From contig NZ_JBBOOM010000001.1 in NCBI RefSeq assembly GCF_038003085.1, positions 1,116,001-1,180,000 of the forward strand: 64,000 bases of DNA, written 5' to 3'. The notes under the pieces were generated by a model. That model made no database searches, had not been told where the DNA came from, and worked only from the letters and a program-made list of their open reading frames with translations. How positions within the stretch are numbered: the stretch's first letter is position 1; each line of letters starts with the position of its first letter. This DNA comes from Psychrobacillus sp. FSL K6-2836 (GTDB lineage: Bacteria > Bacillota > Bacilli > Bacillales_A > Planococcaceae). Of the stretch, positions 5,900 through 63,945 are shown piece by piece. Both the position numbers and the translations under genes were made by a program.

Positions 5900-6793
5900 T
5901 TAATCCTTTACCCCTCCTTCTAGTGTTCCTTTCGCATAATATTTAAGAATAAAAGGATAGAAAACAAGCAATGGAACGATGGAAATAATAATTGTTCCCG
6001 CTTGTAAAGAACCAAAATCTAGTGCTTGGACTTGCTCATAAGAAAGGACATTCTGTGCTCCTAAGAGAGTAGTATTGTCTCTTTCTACTACAAATTGCCG
6101 AAGAACTACTTGCAATGGCCATTTATTTGGGTCTGTTAAGTAAATCGTTGCGCGGAAATATTCGTTCCAATGATAGACTCCATAAAATAGTCCCAATGTA
6201 GCCAAACCTGGTTTGGATAGTGGTAACATAATTCGAGTAAAAATTCGAAAATGTCCTGCTCCATCGATTCTTGCTGCTTCCAAAATACCATCTGGTACTT
6301 CTTCAAAAAATCGCATTAGGATAAACAAATAAAAAATATTAATCGTTTTATATAGTAATAGAGAAGCATAAGTGTCAAGTAACCCTAAGTCTTTAACTAG
6401 AAGATATTCCGGGATGAGACCTGGCTCAAAAACCATAATCACTATTAAAAAGACAACAACAACTCGTTTACCTACAAATTCTGTCTTCGCTAAAACATAA
6501 GCAGCTAAAGCAGTCAGAAACAGATTTAAAGCAGTCCCGACAATTGTAAGAAAAAGGCTATTGAAAATACTTCTAACTATAAGTGGATTTGAAAATAACA
6601 CCTCATAATTGATAAATGAAAAACCTTTTGGAATAATATCCAACCCACTAAGTTTATGGACCTGTAAAGGGTCTGAGAAGGACATTGCTAAAAGATTCAA
6701 GATAGGAATTAGAATCATAAATGACAGGATTAACAAAATTGTAGAAATGATAAAGTGAGACCAAGTAAAGCGCTTAAAAAAACGTCGCATCAT
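5900..6793 (-). CDS. ABC transporter permease, LplC/YtcP type
   Basis: Carbohydrate ABC importer inner-membrane subunit (297 aa) with about six hydrophobic segments. The EAA loop, which contacts the ATPase, reads ILEAARIDGAGHFRIFTRIM near residue 190. PLQVVLRQFVVERDN in the last third is typical of LplC/YtcP proteins, as is the ending YYAKGTLEGGVKD. The ATG follows the stop of the preceding permease directly, with GGAG 8 bp upstream, so the two are translationally linked. It acts with the 6794-7696 permease and the 4390-5850 binding protein. Confidence 0.92.
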   Translation of the reverse strand: MMRRFFKRFTWSHFIISTILLILSFMILIPILNLLAMSFSDPLQVHKLSGLDIIPKGFSFINYEVLFSNPLIVRSIFNSLFLTIVGTALNLFLTALAAYVLAKTEFVGKRVVVVFLIVIMVFEPGLIPEYLLVKDLGLLDTYASLLLYKTINIFYLFILMRFFEEVPDGILEAARIDGAGHFRIFTRIMLPLSKPGLATLGLFYGVYHWNEYFRATIYLTDPNKWPLQVVLRQFVVERDNTTLLGAQNVLSYEQVQALDFGSLQAGTIIISIVPLLVFYPFILKYYAKGTLEGGVKD

Positions 6794-7696
6794 TTACCAT
6801 ACTCCTTTCCCCGTCAGCCTTTTCGATATAAAATGTGTGCTCAGTATTAAAACAACACCAATTACACCTTTAAAAAGACTGGCTGCCGTTGCATAAGCGT
6901 ATTGTCCATTGAGAATTCCGATACGGTAGACATATGTATCGAGAATATCGATTTTACTAATCGTAGAATCGTTAATCATATTGAATACTTGGTCAAACCC
7001 TGCATTCAAGAAGAAACCTAAATTTAGTATGAAAACGACTACGACTGTACTTAACAGTTGTGGAAACGTGATAAAACGCATTTGTTGTAAAGTAGAAGCT
7101 CCGTCTATACGTGCTGCTTCATACAAAGAAGGACTAATTTTCATAATAGCTGCAAGATAAATGATGGAATCCCATCCAGCACTTCTCCACATTTCCGAAA
7201 ATACTAGCACCCATCTGATATGATCTTTACTTGTCATATAATCTAGAGTTGGTAGTTGAAAAAAATTTCTGATGACATTTACGCCACCGCTATCAGGACT
7301 AAGTAAGCTAATCCATACTCCTGCAATAACTACCCATGAAAGGAAATGAGGTAAATAAATCACAGATTGTACGTATTTTCTAAATGGCCCATTTCTAAGT
7401 TCATTGATCATCAATGAAAGTATAATCGGGATTGGAAAAAAGAAAATTATCTTCATCGAACTAATAATAATCGTATTTTGTAATACATCAAAAAAAGCTG
7501 GAGAATCGAATAGTACTTTAAAATGCTTCAAACCGACCCAGATATTATCCCCAATAACACGGTAATCCTGAAAAGCGAGCTTCATGCCGATAATAGGGAT
7601 CACATTAAAAATGACAAAATATAATATGGCCGGAAAGAGCATCAAGTAAATGACCCAGTCTTTTTTAATTCTTTGGAATATCCCCTTCTGTGTCAT
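6794..7696 (-). CDS. ABC transporter permease, LplB type
   Basis: First membrane subunit of the importer (300 aa), with a cytoplasmic start, about six membrane segments (first near residues 15-38) and an EAA loop SLYEAARIDGASTLQQMRFI near 190. The motif YLPHFLSWVVIAGVW near 120 is characteristic of LplB-type permeases. Its start lies inside the end of the upstream kinase gene (32 bp overlap), pointing to coupled expression with the kinase. It is the expected partner of the 5900-6793 permease. Confidence 0.92.
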   Translation of the reverse strand: MTQKGIFQRIKKDWVIYLMLFPAILYFVIFNVIPIIGMKLAFQDYRVIGDNIWVGLKHFKVLFDSPAFFDVLQNTIIISSMKIIFFFPIPIILSLMINELRNGPFRKYVQSVIYLPHFLSWVVIAGVWISLLSPDSGGVNVIRNFFQLPTLDYMTSKDHIRWVLVFSEMWRSAGWDSIIYLAAIMKISPSLYEAARIDGASTLQQMRFITFPQLLSTVVVVFILNLGFFLNAGFDQVFNMINDSTISKIDILDTYVYRIGILNGQYAYATAASLFKGVIGVVLILSTHFISKRLTGKGVW

Positions 7697-8594
7697 GGAT
7701 TAGCTCCTTTTTAAAAATTTGATCTAAGTCTTTTCTATACGGCATGCCCGCTTGTGCACCCTTCTTCTGTACGGACAAGGCTGCAGCAATATTTCCAAAG
7801 CGGATACATTCGCTCAAATCCTTCCCTTCAGCTAGTGCAACAGCAAAGGCACCACAAAAAGTATCTCCAGCACCAGTTGTATCTACTGCTTGAACTGTTC
7901 GGGCTGGAACATTAACTATGCGACTCCCATCAAAAAATTTAACCCCTTCTTGACCGCATGTTATTACGAGCTTATTAGGAAATTTGCTCAATGCATCCTC
8001 CATCTTACTGTCTGACTGATCGAGAACCAAATGGTATTCATGTTCATTTGGAGTTAAATAAGTAATTTTCTCTAGAATGTCTTGTTTTATATGTTGAGAT
8101 GGGGCTGGATTCACAATAATTATCTTTTGGTTCTCATAGAGAATTGGTATAAGGTATTCAATCGTTTCCATTGGTATCTCCAGCTGGAAAATAAAAATAT
8201 CATGCTTCAAAATCTGTTCTAAGTGACTTTTTACATACTTCTCATTTGTATGGCTATTAGCTCCCGGAATTACAATGATTCGGTTTTCAGAATTACTAAT
8301 TTCAACGAAGGCTGCTCCTGTATGTGCGTTATTCACAGCGTTAAGAAAAGAAGTTTCTACGTTTTCCAGAAGAAAAGAATCCTTTGCAAAATTCCCATTG
8401 TCGTCATTACCGACAGAGCCAAAAAACGTGACCTGTGCTCCTAAACGAGAGGCAGCTACAGCCTGATTTGCACCCTTTCCTCCGAGTGCTCTAAAAAAGT
8501 TGTTTCCTAGTATTGTCTCACCTGTCTTAGGAAGCACATCTGCCTCCACAAAATAATCACTATTTATACTGCCGACCACTGCTATTTTTTTCAT
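7665..8594 (-). CDS. PfkB/ribokinase-family sugar kinase
   Basis: ATP-dependent sugar or nucleoside kinase (309 aa). The N-terminal PfkB motif is RALGGKGANQAVAASRLGA (residues ~35-53) and the C-terminal motif is DTTGAGDTFCGAFAVALAEG (~240-259), which holds the anion hole and catalytic Asp. GGKGANQAVA and NPAPSQ are ribokinase-like, so ribose is a fair first guess. The start has GGGTG 8 bp upstream. It lies 12 bp after the DUF4387 gene and overlaps the next permease gene by 32 bp. Together with two ARH-fold hydrolases it suggests import of a riboside, cleavage, then phosphorylation of the freed sugar. A nucleoside or another pentose as substrate cannot be excluded. Confidence 0.85.
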   Translation of the reverse strand: MKKIAVVGSINSDYFVEADVLPKTGETILGNNFFRALGGKGANQAVAASRLGAQVTFFGSVGNDDNGNFAKDSFLLENVETSFLNAVNNAHTGAAFVEISNSENRIIVIPGANSHTNEKYVKSHLEQILKHDIFIFQLEIPMETIEYLIPILYENQKIIIVNPAPSQHIKQDILEKITYLTPNEHEYHLVLDQSDSKMEDALSKFPNKLVITCGQEGVKFFDGSRIVNVPARTVQAVDTTGAGDTFCGAFAVALAEGKDLSECIRFGNIAAALSVQKKGAQAGMPYRKDLDQIFKKELIHDTEGDIPKN

Positions 8595-8606
8595 ATGTCT
8601 AACACC

Positions 8607-8918
8607 CTAATCTATTAGTATGTTCATCAATGGAGCATGCTGCTGTGCGCCATATACATCTCTATCTCCAATAGTTCCTGAAGAAACTTCCCTTAGAATT
8701 GTTATCTTTATGCCCATTGCAGGATCAAAAAACACAATATGACGGATATCACTTTCTGGAATGTTATAAAGACTACAGATCATCTCGGTTGTAATTTTAT
8801 TTGAATTTTTAACCCGCTGATATTTTTCAGCACTATCAAATAAAATATCCATTGTCAGTTCAAATGGTCCTGAATTTTTACTTCTTAATACCTTTGCGAT
8901 ATCAAATAACTTTTCCAT
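8607..8918 (-). CDS. DUF4387-family small protein
   Basis: A 103-residue protein of the DUF4387 type. It has an N-terminal KLFDIAKVLRSKNSGPFELT and a middle block ESDIRHIVFFDPAMGIKITI that I recognise as the family core. In other genomes DUF4387 is encoded beside, or fused to, AtuA-like DUF1446 proteins, and here it follows one after 10 bp. The ATG at 8918 is chosen because AGGAGGGGG precedes it; a TTG 24 bp further upstream lies before that ribosome site. Its biochemical role is not established; the pairing suggests it is a small subunit of the AtuA-like protein. Confidence 0.75.
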   Translation of the reverse strand: MEKLFDIAKVLRSKNSGPFELTMDILFDSAEKYQRVKNSNKITTEMICSLYNIPESDIRHIVFFDPAMGIKITILREVSSGTIGDRDVYGAQQHAPLMNILID

Positions 8919-20423: not shown

Positions 20424-20686
20424 TACATTTTTTAGAATATTTAACCTAAAAAATAATTTCTTTTATTGTATGACATTTCCAACCTATCATAATAAAACTT
20501 GTTCAAATCATATAATATCCAATAATTACAAAAAATGATGAATAGTATAAATACCTCTATTTGAACCACTCAAAAAGATTAATTTAGTTGTTTAAATTTT
20601 AAATTGAGTGTGTTAATAACTAGTAACACTACTTCAGTTTTTGATTATTTTAAATAGATTTCAGTATAGGATATTCCCAAGTTATT

Positions 20687-21165
20687 ATGTTTTGGTTGGA
20701 GTTTACGTGGTGGTTAGAGTAATTTAAGTGGTAGTTGGAACCGGTTATGTGGTGGTTAATCCAAGTTATGTGGTAGTTGGGAGTTTATGTGATGGTTAGA
20801 GTAATTTAAGTGGTGGTTGGAACTGGTTATGTGGTGGTTAATCGAAGTTATGTGGTGGTTAATCGAAGTTATGTGGTGGTTAATCGAAGTTATGTGATAG
20901 TTGGGAGTTTATGTGGTGGTTAGAGTAATTTATGTGGTAGTTGGAACTGGTTATGTGGTGGTTAATAGAAGTTATGTGGTAGTTAGGAGTTTATGTGGTG
21001 GTTGGAGTAATTTATGTGGTAGTTGGAACCGCTTATGTGGTGGTTAATCGAAGTTATGTGGTAGTTTAGAGTTTATGGAGTGGTTTATGTGGTAGTTGCA
21101 AACTATTATGTGGTATTCGGAACTGGTTATGTGGTGGTTAATCAAAGTTATATGGCGGATAATTT
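20687..21165. repeat. family-1 minisatellite array, 82 bp higher-order unit
   Basis: Monomers of about 19-22 bp share the core TTATGTGGTRGTT. Four variants recur in order (roughly TTTATGTGGTGGTTAGAG, AATTTAAGTGGTAGTTGGA, ACCGGTTATGTGGTGGTTA, GAAGTTATGTGGTAGTTGG), giving an 82 bp unit: GGAAC marks fall at 20738, 20820, 20944 and 21026, with two extra monomers (42 bp) in the third interval. No open frame runs through it. It lies between the terminator of the rare-sugar operon and the kdgR promoter. Confidence 0.9.
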
Positions 21166-21193
21166 CTAAAGATTTTTAGATAACTTTCTAAAG

Positions 21194-21236
21194 CAAAAAA
21201 AGCCGCTAGAAGTGATTGAATCACCTCTAACAGCTT
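21194..21236 (-). terminator. intrinsic terminator after the rare-sugar operon
   Basis: On the minus strand AGAGGTGATT and AATCACTTCT pair, with outer GC pairs, then GGC and a run of seven T. It lies 60-100 bp beyond the HAD gene stop. It is nearly identical to the terminator at 45478-45517. Confidence 0.85.
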
Positions 21237-40798: not shown

Positions 40799-41075
40799 GA
40801 GTTTATGTGGTGGTTAGCAGGAGTTATGTGGTAGTTAGAGTGGAATAAGTGGTAATTGGAACCGGTTATGTGGATGTTAATCTGGTTTATTTGGTAGTTG
40901 GGAGTTTATGTGGTAGTTAGAGTAATTTATGTGGTAGTTGGAACCGGTTATGTGGTGGTTAATCGAAGTTATGTGGTAGTTGGGAGTTTATGTGGTGGTT
41001 AGAACCGCTTATTAGATAAAAGTTTAAAATTAGGACTGGACATATTGTGTGGAGGTTAGTGAGTTATCCGGCAGG
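40799..41075. repeat. family-1 minisatellite array (short copy)
   Basis: The same TTATGTGGTRGTT monomers as at 20687-21165. GGAACC marks at 40859 and 40941 are 82 bp apart, and the next is three monomers (61 bp) on; the end beyond about 41015 is degenerate. The array lies between two converging terminators (40674-40723 plus, 41110-41150 minus), so it should be untranscribed. Nothing else is seen in the 40724-41108 gap. Confidence 0.88.
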
Positions 41076-44785: not shown

Positions 44786-45065
44786 AACTCATTTCCCCTT
44801 TGGCTATAATTTCACACTTACCAATATTGTGTGACATTACCAACTTATCACAAGTAAACTAGTACGAATATCGAAATTTCGGATTATTCCGAAAGATTGA
44901 TAAATAGTATTAGTTTTATAAAAAAACTCGTATCTTTTGAACCGTTCTCAACAAATCATTTTAGTAGTTTATACTTTCAATTTAAGTTAATTAGTACCCT
45001 TTAATACTACTTTAGTTTCAGATATTTTTAATAGATTTCAGAATAAGAAATTCCCAGGTTACGGT

Positions 45066-45453
45066 TAGGAGTTTATGTGGTGGTTGGCAGAAGTTATGTG
45101 TAAGTTAGAGAAGTTTATGTGGTGGTTGGAACCGGTTATGTGGTGGTTAATCGAAGTTATGTGGTAGTTTTAAGTTTATGCGGTGGATAAAGCAATTTAT
45201 GTGGTAATTGGAACCGGTTATGTCGTGGTTAGAGGAGTTTATGTGGTAGTTTGGCGTTTATTTGGTAGTTTGGAGTTTATGTGGTAGTTAAAGCAATTTA
45301 AGTGGTAGTTGGAACCGGTTATGTGGTGGTTAGAGGAGTTTATTTGGTAGTTCGGCGTTTATGTGGTGGTTAGTGTAATTTATGTGGTAGTTAATCGAAG
45401 TTATGTGGTAGTTAGTCCAAGTTATGTGGTAGTTAATCCAAGTTATGTGGCGA
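45066..45453. repeat. family-1 minisatellite array
   Basis: TTATGTGGTRGTT monomers in the same four-variant order, with GGAACC marks at 45129 and 45211 (82 bp apart) and 45312. It lies between the terminator of the 45522-51105 operon and the subtilase start. In the remaining 44786-45065 stretch I see only AT-rich DNA and no clear promoter. Confidence 0.9.
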
Positions 45454-45477
45454 ATTATTTCTAATAACTTTTAAGGC

Positions 45478-45517
45478 AAAAAAAGGCCGCTAGAAGTGAT
45501 TGAATCACCTCTAATGG
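45478..45517 (-). terminator. intrinsic terminator of the NRAMP/DapA/Gfo operon
   Basis: AGAAGTGATT (45492-45501) and AATCACCTCT (45503-45512) pair with outer GCC/GGC, and on the minus strand a run of six T follows. It lies within 10-45 bp of the Gfo/Idh/MocA stop codon and matches the terminator at 21194-21236. Confidence 0.88.
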
Positions 45518-51307: not shown

Positions 51308-52045
51308 TCGTTATACGCCCGAGACGTTAGCGAACGCTCGGCATTTTACTTTATGCCCCGGGATCTAGTCACATGCGCTCGAGACCAACCTCTATACGCT
51401 CGAGAAGTATGCGAACTCTCGGCGGTTTGCTCTATACGCCCGGGATCTAGTCCTATCCGCTCGGCCAGAACCTCTATCCGCTCGAGAAGTATGCGAACGC
51501 TCGGCGGTTTGCTCTATACGCTCGGAATCTAGTCCCATGCGCTCGAGACGAACCTCTATCCGCTCGAGAAGTATGCGAACGCTCAGCGGTTTGCTTTATA
51601 CGCCCGGGATCTAGTCCTATGCGCGCAAGACGAACCTCTATACGCTCGAGAAGTATGCGAACGCTCGACGTCTTGCTCTATGCGCCCGGGATCTAGTCCC
51701 ACGCGCTCGAGACTAACCTCTATCCGCTCGAGCAATAAGCGAACGCCCGGCGTTTTGCTCTATACACTCGGGATCTAGTCGCATGGCTCGAGACTAACCT
51801 CTATACGCTCGAGTAATAAGCGAACGCTCGGTGTTTTGCTCTATACGCTCGGGTTTTAGTCCCATGCGCTCGAGACTAACCTCTATCCGCTCGAGAAGTA
51901 TGCGAACGCTCGGCGGTTTGCTCTATACGCTCGGTATCTAGTCTCATGCGCTCGACCAGAACCTCTATCCGCTCGAGCAGTAAGCGTACACCCGACTTCT
52001 TACTCTATGCATCCGAAACGAGACCCTATACTACGCACCAGCGAA
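51308..52045. repeat. family-2 minisatellite array, 82 bp higher-order unit
   Basis: About nine units. Four ~20 bp monomers alternate (roughly CTCTATCCGCTCGAGAAGTA, TGCGAACGCTCGGCGGTTTG, CTCTATACGCCCGGGATCTA, TCCTATGCGCTCGAGACGAA) around a core TAT.CGCTCGAGA. The same mark recurs at 51404, 51486, 51568, 51650, 51732, 51813, 51895 and 51977, i.e. every 82 bp with one 81. It is much richer in GC than the surroundings. No gene runs through it. It lies between a terminator (52078-52112) and the NRAMP-like promoter. Confidence 0.92.
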
Positions 52046-52077
52046 AAGCGTCAGTATGATTTAACAACCTTATTTAA

Positions 52078-52112
52078 AAAATAGCCTATTCGCATGAGCG
52101 AACAGGCCACTT
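52078..52112 (-). terminator. intrinsic terminator of the second CUT1 importer operon
   Basis: GCCTATTCGC (52084-52093) and GCGAACAGGC (52098-52107) form a 10 bp stem with a 4-base loop, and a T run follows on the minus strand. It lies about 10 bp after the binding-protein stop codon. Confidence 0.9.
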
Positions 52113-52117
52113 ATTTA

Positions 52118-53746
52118 TTATTTCCATTCTCTTTCTGTGTAACCTTTTGCTTTGATCCCTTCATTTGTTTCTTTAATAATCGCTTCGCCGCCTTTTGCCA
52201 TATATTCCTCTACAAGAGCATCCCAATCAGATACTGGTCTTTGGCCTGCGATCATTTTAGATTGTTCGTTAATTAGGAATTGCATTAGGTCTGTGCCTTT
52301 TTCTTGATTGGTCGGTGACAATACACCATGAGAAGGGTCAATATACATTTGGTTCGATTCAAACATTTCCTGCAAGGTAACTGTCATTTCCTTTAACTCT
52401 GGTAAAGTGTAGCTATCAGCGTAGTTAATCGCTGCATCCTCTGGAACCTGCTCTCTGTTATCCAAGAAATAAGTGGATGGTGAAAGTCCTTCAGAAGAGA
52501 ATGTTGGAACTTGGACAGGTAATCCATTTTCCATATTATAACCAGTTCCTTCTTTACCTAAATAGAAGTCAAAGTCCGCATTTTGAGGATTTTTTTCCTC
52601 AGCCGGGAAATATGTTTTTCCGAAATCCACTAGCTCTAATGCGCGATAAATTTTTCCTTCATCTTCCGCAAGATTAGCATTTAAAGCAAGAATCCCTGAG
52701 TTACCTGAACCCATTGTGAATCCTTTAGATTTATCTGGTGCTTCAAATGGCGGAATTGCTACGAGCTCTGCGTCCGGGTTAATGGATAATAATCCTTCAA
52801 AGTATTCTTGAGACATACCTGAAACTCCACCAACGAAAATTCCGGCTTTGCCAGAATAAAATTCATTATTCGTACTTGCCCAATCTAAAACCGCAAAATC
52901 CTTCGTCATAGCCCCTTCTTTATAAAGGTTAGCAAAGAATTGAACTAAATCTTTTCTTCCATCAGAAATGATACCCGGGATAAAATCACCGTTATCATTT
53001 TGGTGATACCATGCGTTGAAGTCCCAATAAGTTCCCATATTGAAGTTTGGATTGATATTTTCTCCAATTGCTACACCATACGTATCAGCCTTACCATTAC
53101 CATCTGGATCTTCTTTAGTAAATGCAATGGCAATTTTCTCAAGCTCATCGTAACTCGTTGGAATTTCTAATCCTAATTTGTCCAACCAATCCTTCCGAAT
53201 AATCGGAGTTAAAGGATATGGTTGAGAATAACGCGGAATTCCATATATTTTGCCATTTACTTTAAAAGAATTGTAAATATAGTCTGGGATTTTACCTAAT
53301 GTTGCATAATGTGATAGATAATCATCTAAAGGTAGGAATGCCCCGTCCTCAGCCCATTGATAAAAACGTGTATCACCAGCTTGGAATCCTACTAAATCTG
53401 GCATTGAACCTGAAGCTACAATGGCAGATGATTTTTCCACATAGTCACCTTGAGGAATAATCTCTGGTTTATAATCTACATTAAAGCGCTCATTTATCAA
53501 ATCAAGACCAGGACTACTTAACGGTGGTGGATCACCAAAACGGAATGTCATCCCCGTGATTGTATGTTTTTCACTATGATCAAATGGATCAACCTGCGCA
53601 TCTGGAGCCTTTTCAGTTTCTCCTGCTGTTTCTGTTTCTTTTTCTTTGTCTGTTTCTTTCTCACCTGTGTTTTCATCCGTACAAGCTACCAGCATAAAAC
53701 TGAGAAAAAGAAGTAGCAAGCCAATTATTAAGTGCTTATTTTTCAC
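52118..53746 (-). CDS. CUT1-type solute-binding lipoprotein (second system)
   Basis: Extracellular binding protein of the LplA-like family (542 aa). The signal ends in the lipobox LVAC near residue 22, followed by a charged Glu/Lys/Thr linker to about residue 55. The binding domain has DYVEKSSAIVASGSMPDLVG near 103 and a C-terminal AKGGEAIIKETNEGIKAKGY. The start is GTG with GGAGGGG upstream. It is the last gene of the importer operon. The linked heparinase-type enzyme suggests an oligosaccharide, perhaps containing uronic acid. Confidence 0.9.
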   Translation of the reverse strand: MKNKHLIIGLLLLFLSFMLVACTDENTGEKETDKEKETETAGETEKAPDAQVDPFDHSEKHTITGMTFRFGDPPPLSSPGLDLINERFNVDYKPEIIPQGDYVEKSSAIVASGSMPDLVGFQAGDTRFYQWAEDGAFLPLDDYLSHYATLGKIPDYIYNSFKVNGKIYGIPRYSQPYPLTPIIRKDWLDKLGLEIPTSYDELEKIAIAFTKEDPDGNGKADTYGVAIGENINPNFNMGTYWDFNAWYHQNDNGDFIPGIISDGRKDLVQFFANLYKEGAMTKDFAVLDWASTNNEFYSGKAGIFVGGVSGMSQEYFEGLLSINPDAELVAIPPFEAPDKSKGFTMGSGNSGILALNANLAEDEGKIYRALELVDFGKTYFPAEEKNPQNADFDFYLGKEGTGYNMENGLPVQVPTFSSEGLSPSTYFLDNREQVPEDAAINYADSYTLPELKEMTVTLQEMFESNQMYIDPSHGVLSPTNQEKGTDLMQFLINEQSKMIAGQRPVSDWDALVEEYMAKGGEAIIKETNEGIKAKGYTEREWK

Positions 53747-54704: not shown

Positions 54705-54820
54705 ATAAGAAAAGCGTAAGCGCCTTTGTCACAGTCTAAGTTCGCGACATCGTGTCGCAACGACTGTATGACCCACATCGTGTGGGCTTCCGACTAGCGC
54801 TGGAGCTAGACATAAAAATC
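54705..54820. repeat. GC-rich intergenic repeat with nested hairpins
   Basis: This element separates the two permease genes. It starts near AAAAGCGTAAGCGCC and ends near CGACTAGCGCTGGAGCTAGA, a pattern I remember as frequent between genes in Bacillales. Inside are two six-pair hairpins with the same TCG loop, GCGACA/TGTCGC (54744-54758) and CCCACA/TGTGGG (54772-54786), and an outer ACAGTC/GACTGT pair. It may lower permease-2 expression or stabilise part of the mRNA. Confidence 0.75.
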
Positions 54821-56644: not shown

Positions 56645-56963
56645 CTATTTCATAAAGAAGTAATTAGTAATAAAATTCGAACAAAGTTAATTTCTGCTCC
56701 AGGCGGATGCTTTCCGCGGGCACGGAGGCGTTACCACACGATGTGGCGCTCTTAGCCTGTGTTCCTTGAAAGCTTTCCTGCAAGGCTTTCAGCTCGTGCA
56801 CCTGTCGCTACGCTATCGGTGCAGAAAACATTTGCTATTCCCACTGGAGTCGCCGCCTTGCGCTCCAATCAACGAAGTCCACTTTAAATAAACGGATAAT
56901 TGAGTATAATATCACATTAATATTCATGTATTAACTTAAAATAAGTAATTATGAAATTGACTC
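56645..56963. repeat. left inverted repeat of the four-gene cassette (GC-rich core)
   Basis: The reverse complement matches 63685-63945. The shared part includes the last 12 bases of the heparinase-like gene (GAGTCAAT..CATAA), then CATAATTACTTATT, ATGTGATATTATA, CAATTATCC, TTTATTTAAAGTGGACTTCG, the GC-rich core (GGAGCGCAAGGCGGCGACTCC ... GCGGAAAGC.TCCGCCTGGA) and CTACTAATTACTT-type sequence at the far end. This copy holds about 70 bp extra, including the hairpin CCACA-CGA-TGTGG (56734-56746). The 56563-56948 gap has nothing else. Confidence 0.85.
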
Positions 56964-63684: not shown

Positions 63685-63945
63685 GAGTCAATCCCATAAT
63701 TACTTATTTCGGTTTAAAACAAGAATATTTATGTGATATTATATTCAATTATCCATTTATTTAAAGTGGACTTCGTTGATTGGAGCGCAAGGCGGCGACT
63801 CCAGCGGGAATAGCATGAGCTGAAAGCCCCGCAGGAACGCAGTGACGAGGAGATTGAAGCCATGCCCGCGGAAAGCGTCCGCCTGGAGCGGAAATCAACT
63901 TTGTTCGGATTTTACTACTAATTACTTTATTATGAATTAACTCTA
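63685..63945. repeat. right inverted repeat of the four-gene cassette
   Basis: Inverted copy of 56645-56963, starting GAGTCAATCCCATAATTACT 33 bp upstream of the propeller start codon and ending near ACTTTATTATGAATTAACTC. It contains the GC-rich core (GGAGCGCAAGGCGGCGACTC ... GCGGAAAGCGTCCGCCTGG) of the type widely scattered in Bacillales intergenic regions. Confidence 0.85.

Follow-up and report, generated by a model that had tools for sequence, protein, structure and literature searches.

Phased tandem arrays with a pitch near two helical turns in Psychrobacillus and related Bacilli: candidate iteron-like sites for a DNA-binding protein

The genome of Psychrobacillus sp. FSL K6-2836 contains at least three families of tandem direct repeats that are built on an 82-bp unit, and within each unit a short core recurs at steps close to two helical turns. 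The arrays are intergenic, and related genomes carry other motifs at a constant spacing of about two turns, which suggests that something reads the geometry of the array. The explanation that we favor, while placing it somewhat below an even chance, is that these repeats are phased, iteron-like arrays of putative sites for a DNA-binding or DNA-wrapping protein, with rapid gain, loss and lengthening of arrays. Among the features that favor this model are the quantised step lengths, the occurrence of three core families with one design, and the near absence of such arrays outside one taxonomic family. Here, we document the cores, spacer lengths and pitch of the arrays, their spread through that family, a pooled constraint on the cores, and the turnover of arrays between species.

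Two of the repeat families lie in the window, the 64,000-nucleotide stretch of this genome that was analysed. The family 2 (F2) array, at 51308..52010 on the plus strand, comprises about 8 units of 82 bp with the core TATNCGCYCG, the unit reading TATCCGCTCGAGAAGTATG / CGAACGCTCGGCGGTTTGCTC / TATACGCTCGGGATCTAGTCC / CATGCGCTCGAGACGAACCTC with steps of 19/21/21/21 bp. Family 1 (F1) is represented on the same strand by array 1 (20687..21165; core TATGTGGTRGTT, consensus unit 21/21/21/19), by array 2 (40799..41009, from which decayed monomers run on, by eye, to about 41085), and by array 3 (45066..45465), whose orthologous site in a relative, G007, is occupied by a shorter array that shares its left border. 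The initial annotation had assigned a repeat of 82 bp to both families, and this is borne out by Tandem Repeats Finder, which detects period 82 in the F2 array (51312-51986, 85% matches) and in parts of all three F1 arrays (within 20698-21085, 40803-41003 and 45239-45434); array 3 is less regular, and periods of 21, 42, 82, 101 and 183 each score there. The F2 repeat of about nine units described in that annotation comes to 8.3 copies, and its four monomers of about 20.5 bp give way to core-to-core steps that are mainly 21+21+21+19 in both families.

The distances between cores take a small set of values. Among successive TATNYG cores in 702 kb of the window genome, made up of the window, 20 evenly spaced stretches and 19 stretches picked around matches (about two-thirds of the total, the window and the evenly spaced stretches, being unselected), a distance of 21 bp was found 251 times and one of 19 bp 46 times, against a background of about 10 per distance, while 20 bp was found 6 times and 22 bp 13 times. 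Distances of 40 bp (38 times) and 42 bp (51 times) are raised as well, and 41 bp (8 times) is not. When one mismatch per core was allowed in stretches of the window genome and of Psychrobacillus, consecutive 19-bp steps were separated by three 21-bp steps in 30 cases, by two in 14, by one in 5, by none in 17, by four in 3 and by five in 3; three 21-bp steps per 19-bp step is the commonest arrangement, not an exclusive one. Units of 61 and 103 bp are also present within Psychrobacillus, and the consensus units of F1 array 3 and of a further array, L068, are 81 bp long and contain one 20-bp step. An F1 pattern set at 20-bp steps, used solely as a control, gave 0 matches.

Such arrays do not arise by chance, since chains of TATNYG cores numbered 0 in three mononucleotide shuffles and since three TATNYG cores at 21-bp steps were matched exactly 159 times in the whole genome against 5 times for the reversed pattern (330 against 43 with one mismatch). 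Five arrays (L007, L012, L017, L018 and L020) fall within 400 kb of unselected sequence, three having a period of 82 and two shorter ones a period of 21. Because the other tandem repeats in this sample have different periods, including 9, 18/36, 27 and 121, our claim is restricted to this class of arrays and does not extend to all repeats.

F1 and F2 had been presented as two independent sequences, without similarity, that share one design. The lack of similarity holds: local alignment of their 82-bp units gives a score of 6, which 433 of 500 shuffles equal or exceed, and the common part is TATNYG in register. The shared design also stands and extends to a third family, F3 (core TATACGAGAG), which has an 82-bp unit like those of F1 and F2 and whose triplets number 121 in the window genome against 10 for controls. 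Independence is doubtful, because TATNYG occupies the identical register in all three families; in F2 it is usually carried by just two of the four monomers, the remaining ones reading CATNCG or CGAACG.

The distribution of the arrays was followed in an order sample of 200 genomes, all within one taxonomic family, which we take to be the Planococcaceae of GTDB (at NCBI, Psychrobacillus is placed in the Bacillaceae), and TATNYG triplets at steps of 20, 21 and 22 bp were compared. At 21 bp, triplets occur in 127 genomes, with at least 10 in 52 (reversed control, at least 10 in 15); the other 73 have none, although some of these have 20-bp triplets. At 20 bp, they occur in 50 genomes, with at least 10 in 20 and a maximum of 206 (reversed control, at least 10 in 13), and the window genome has none at this step. 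At 22 bp, triplets occur in 56 genomes with a maximum of 4 in each (2 for the reversed control), and 43 of the roughly 69 matches listed represent one conserved, coding-like sequence. Within Psychrobacillus, 21-bp triplets are present in 17 of 19 genomes; four of the 17 have just one match each, as does the reversed control in three of these four. The F1 pattern matches Psychrobacillus soli among the named genomes, and a P. soli segment has 100% identity with G009, which belongs to Psychrobacillus. The proposal in the initial annotation that selection acts on geometry is supported by this comparison, in which steps of 20 and 21 bp, but not of 22 bp, recur often and with many different cores.

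The reversed control, GYNTAT, is itself frequent at 20- and 21-bp steps, for example in G066, G103, G108, G180 and G200. Its high counts at 20 and 21 bp, and not at 22 bp, suggest that arrays with other cores exist at the same pitch, and its recurrence at least 10 times in 15 of the 200 genomes at 21 bp and in 13 at 20 bp indicates that TATNYG is not the sole core. The lineage cores include TATCCGTCACTTT, TATGCGCGCTT, TATCCGCCAATTT, TATTCGACCGATT, TATCTGCGAATTT and TATCCGAGCAAG, and TATNYG appears in every one listed because it was built into the search pattern. A repeat of irregular long period (141-303 bp) in G006 (L084:16171-17583) has TACTTGCGG-like cores that by eye lie about 21 bp apart, and it is perhaps a further core family without TATNYG. 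Finally, in a class-wide sample, a four-core pattern matched 14 of the 28 genomes that belong to the family and 3 of the 271 that do not, two of these three being 7-bp microsatellites; this search was confined to TATNYG at 21-bp steps and would not reveal arrays outside the family that have another core or pitch.

Arrays from other genera that were picked by 21-bp matches have nearly all steps of 21 bp, and those picked by 20-bp matches have steps of 20 bp or of 20 and 21 bp mixed; one array of G113 mixes them, and L132, a mixed array, has a 41-bp period. One array in P. soli runs 21,21,20,21,21,21,20,21, with one short step in four, and a 246-bp period (3 x 82) in array L101 is the single hint of an 82-bp unit outside Psychrobacillus. 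The expectation that a four-monomer unit of 82 bp would be the general rule fails, since other genera step by 21, 20 or 20/21 bp and the genus itself has units of 61 and 103 bp; the 82-bp unit is one local solution, mainly confined to Psychrobacillus. There, the 21/21/21/19 pattern has a mean pitch of 20.5 bp. A mean pitch of 20-21 bp, about two helical turns, favors the idea of selected geometry, and tandem direct repeats at this spacing are what is seen in iteron arrays.

Comparison of neighbouring monomers separates a conserved part from a variable one. Over the first 10 bp, or 12 bp in F1, neighbours mostly agree, except at the N position and a few others, and the remainder is near random. 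In F3, mismatch between neighbours is 0.03-0.16 in the core (0.63 at the N position) and 0.42-0.87 in the spacer, and F1 and F2 resemble F3 bar a few variable core positions. Each monomer pairs a core that spans about 10 bp, or one helical turn, with a spacer that is 11 bp long three times and 9 bp once. Additionally, when 82-bp units were aligned in 19 arrays (16 from the window genome and 3 from relatives, two without an 82-bp consensus having been dropped and window array 2 left out), mismatches amounted to 167/3639 in cores and 306/3703 in spacers (odds ratio 0.53, p 1.5e-10). We grade the case for constraint on the core as good but not strong, because it is not seen in L078 (core 0.065, spacer 0.048) or L068 (0.106 and 0.097), because core positions 6-11 do not differ significantly from spacers in eight clean arrays (90/744 against 143/1008, p 0.23), and because the arrays show no significant shortage of small indels relative to orthologous DNA in the flanks (39 per 439 substitutions against 20 per 158, p 0.22).

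Species differ in whether a particular site bears an array. Two sites were traced through Psychrobacillus by their flanking genes, each matched in 10 of 19 genomes, with ten and nine loci compared. Within 670-750 bp beside the gene, the F2 site has an array only in the window genome and G008, and the F1 site only in the window genome and G007. F1 arrays 1 and 3 have both flanks in common, their left flanks (20465-20685 and 44826-45062) being 71% identical over 239 aligned bp, despite different flanking genes, the downstream ones being those for a LacI-type regulator and a subtilase. The arrays therefore seem able to move with their flanks or to exchange them. A GC-rich repeat (GCGACTCC..GCGGG ... 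GCGGAAAGCG) is found in the window at 63795-63880 and occupies the F2 site in G015 (L104), and seeming remnants of it, recognised by eye, border the F2, L078 and L130 arrays. This element was rejected as the source of F2, its motifs not being concentrated at arrays.

These patterns of turnover bear on a serious rival explanation, to which we assign an unlikely but substantial place: the arrays may be mostly neutral minisatellites, derived from an ancestral repeat of 20-21 bp whose pitch is kept by descent. New arrays would be copied from old ones and lengthened by unequal exchange, and the 82-bp unit would be an amplified founder effect. This explanation agrees with the way arrays are gained, lost and changed in length between close species, with the flanks common to arrays 1 and 3, with the arrays without core constraint, with the indel rate that is not clearly lowered, and with the 61- and 103-bp units found beside 82. 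Against it, the core is kept between neighbouring monomers and the spacers are unrelated, a contrast that uniform drift from one ancestor would not produce; the core is constrained in the pooled comparison (p 1.5e-10); and a pitch near two turns recurs across many lineages with different cores. Were the arrays neutral, they would be a clear instance of a tandem repeat that keeps its period, and not its sequence, across the history of a family.

The position of arrays relative to genes was determined for 32 arrays between called genes (three without a called gene on one side, one of them a duplicate, were dropped; L012 was missed by the detector and contig C4 was left out). The gap is tandem for 20 of them, convergent for 10 and divergent for 2, compared with 114, 29 and 31 of the 174 array-free gaps, and neither the convergent excess (p 0.08) nor the divergent deficit (p 0.12) is significant. 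Among the arrays in tandem gaps, 16 of 20 are nearer to a 3' than to a 5' gene end (p 0.012, uncorrected). Of 42 arrays in the window genome and G007, 26 have a terminator-like hairpin at most 200 bp from their right border, a count made without a control. In the window, an intrinsic-terminator-like hairpin at 52076..52109, which on the minus strand reads GCCTGTTCGC-TCAT-GCGAATAGGC-TATTTTTT, stands between the F2 array and the right-hand gene (52118-53746, minus strand) and belongs to that gene. A minus-strand hairpin with an A/T run, seen by eye and absent from the output of the hairpin scan, adjoins F1 array 1 (21193..21234), and a copy 95% identical to it adjoins F1 array 3 (45472..45514, minus strand), where the flanking genes differ. 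The window also holds two Bacillaceae-1 RNAs (RF01690) at gathering score, at 54721-54786 (plus strand) and 56714-56771 (minus strand).

A location near 3' ends, with 10 of 32 arrays in convergent gaps, would be expected of BIME-like recruitment sites for gyrase or another topoisomerase, in which flexible TA and YG steps every two turns would promote wrapping where the supercoils of transcription gather. The two dinucleotides conserved in TATNYG are each a pyrimidine-purine step, a flexible kind, and the mean pitch is 20-20.5 bp in some lineages. We nevertheless consider this explanation improbable: within a genome, conservation extends to the remainder of each core, which flexibility alone would not require, and gyrase is universal, yet 73 of the 200 family genomes lack a 21-bp triplet, though some have 20-bp ones.

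Orientation is fixed in one family of arrays. All 11 F1 arrays in tandem gaps are antisense to their flanking genes, and 15 of 16 F1 arrays have the same orientation relative to replication (p 0.0005), the origin having been set near 2.2 Mb from the change in GC skew. Of seven F3 arrays in tandem gaps, 4 have the same and 3 the opposite orientation, and the F2 arrays (four in number) have no fixed orientation; a single strand rule for all families was rejected, as it fits F1 alone. The orientation of F1 is what would be expected of an element acting at the level of transcription, in which C/A-rich, unstructured read-through RNA from the upstream gene (CCACAUAA repeats) would load Rho and back up an intrinsic terminator, and one F1 antisense unit indeed folds at 0 kcal/mol. 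This possibility is a distant one, given the variable orientation of F3 and F2 and given lineage cores such as TATGCGCGCTT, which are not C-rich and G-poor on either strand.

Several other identities were rejected. The arrays are not coding repeats, since none of the lengths 82, 41 and 20 is divisible by 3 and the ORFs across them look incidental. They are not RNA elements, 11 folds giving z values of -1.0 to +1.4 and no Rfam match being found at the window arrays, nor are they of plasmid origin, F1 array 1 and the F2 array being without a match in 72,556 plasmid records. In G044 (L102:5268-6170 and 6253-8672), an array of 43 cores lies directly beside a CRISPR-like array of period 66. CRISPR arrays have repeats of about 23-50 bp and unique spacers of about 20-70 bp. 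It is highly unlikely that a recombinational or RNA-guided system produced the present arrays or left them behind as remnants: a constant core with unrelated spacers of fixed length and the 66-bp-period neighbor recall CRISPR, but the core here is about 10 bp, the spacers, 9-11 bp in length, come back in blocks every 82 bp, no Rfam match covers the window arrays, and the one CRISPR-like neighbor was seen in passing.

Under the explanation that we favor, that of phased sites, each core of about one turn would be the putative site of a protein that binds DNA sequence-specifically. With a spacer adding about another turn, successive sites would come round every two turns to nearly one and the same side of the helix, permitting cooperative binding or wrapping of the DNA by the putative protein. 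TATNYG would be the more constant half-site, and the other half would vary by lineage and, within one genome, by family; such variation is expected of a reader (one protein or several paralogues) whose specificity shifts over time. The short 19-bp step would set the mean pitch of Psychrobacillus at 20.5 bp, 82 bp corresponding to 8 turns of 10.25 bp. Arrays may grow and shrink by tandem duplication of blocks of 61 to 103 bp and would persist where they are least harmful, mostly near gene 3' ends. A protein that binds them cooperatively or along one face, or that wraps them, could have a role in chromosome organisation, supercoiling or insulation. Phasing alone, at 10.5 bp per turn, leaves unexplained that 19 bp is used and 20 bp avoided in the window genome. 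By arithmetic, a helix of 10.25 bp per turn brings the 21/21/21/19 pattern back into phase after 82 bp, as would suit DNA that is wrapped. A broader proposal, rather speculative and on present evidence fairly improbable, is that, in a single family of Bacilli, the arrays form a class of chromosomal element defined less by sequence than by geometry. Two half-cores, one that changes slowly (often TATNYG) and one that changes fast, would be set at two turns (20, 21, 20/21 or 21/21/21/19), and a putative lineage-specific DNA-wrapping protein would change together with its sites, like satellite DNA and its binding protein.

A published description of such arrays was not found in literature searches, some terms of which were possibly too narrow. 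Subirana and Messeguer (2019; PMC6749651) surveyed satellites, non-coding tandem repeats as are the arrays here, in 119 bacterial and 142 archaeal species, and report transposed families of non-coding long repeats only in Leptospira interrogans and Methanocella conradii; we met with no family of the present kind in that survey, and the terms 'Lysinibacillus', 'Solibacillus', '21 bp' and 'helical' are absent from its main text. As far as the cited descriptions go, REPs are palindromes tied to a transposase (PMC2817692, PMC1525189); REP and BIME elements share with the arrays an extragenic position and many copies, whereas the arrays are direct repeats with no fold signal (z -1.0 to +1.4 in 11 folds). 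REP and BIME elements are also depleted from divergent gaps; of the present arrays, 2 of 32 lie in such gaps, against 31 of 174 array-free gaps, a difference that is not significant (p 0.12).

Eight proteins encoded at or near the window arrays were scanned. They are a LacI regulator, a HAD hydrolase, a xylose-isomerase-like TIM barrel protein, a subtilase, a GFO/IDH/MocA oxidoreductase, an Nramp transporter, a solute-binding protein and a permease, and no replication initiator, as would accompany iterons, is among them. All-against-all blastp of 114 flanking ORFs gave a few paralogous groups, together with orthologues, and no recurrent striking neighbor gene. In the ParR/parC and TubR/tubC centromeres, tandem direct repeats are wrapped into a superstructure by a small DNA-binding protein, with one site per plasmid beside the par genes; the arrays described here are many and scattered, and no such genes are among the eight. 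The iterons of plasmids and phages, such as P1 and R6K, are direct repeats of about 17-22 bp, or about two helical turns, each of which is a protein site. The present arrays are like iterons in being direct repeats at a spacing of about two turns. They differ in the lack of a replication gene among the eight window proteins, in being spread by the dozen over one chromosome, in having a core that differs by array and lineage with unrelated spacers, and in the 21/21/21/19 unit. If the pitch is selected, dozens of related species with different cores on one helical grid would constitute a natural experiment in which binding specificity, cooperativity along one face, and the joint change of protein and site become separable. 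The arrays would then be a bacterial example of satellite-like DNA that is organised in higher-order units, a design otherwise known mainly from eukaryotic centromeres.
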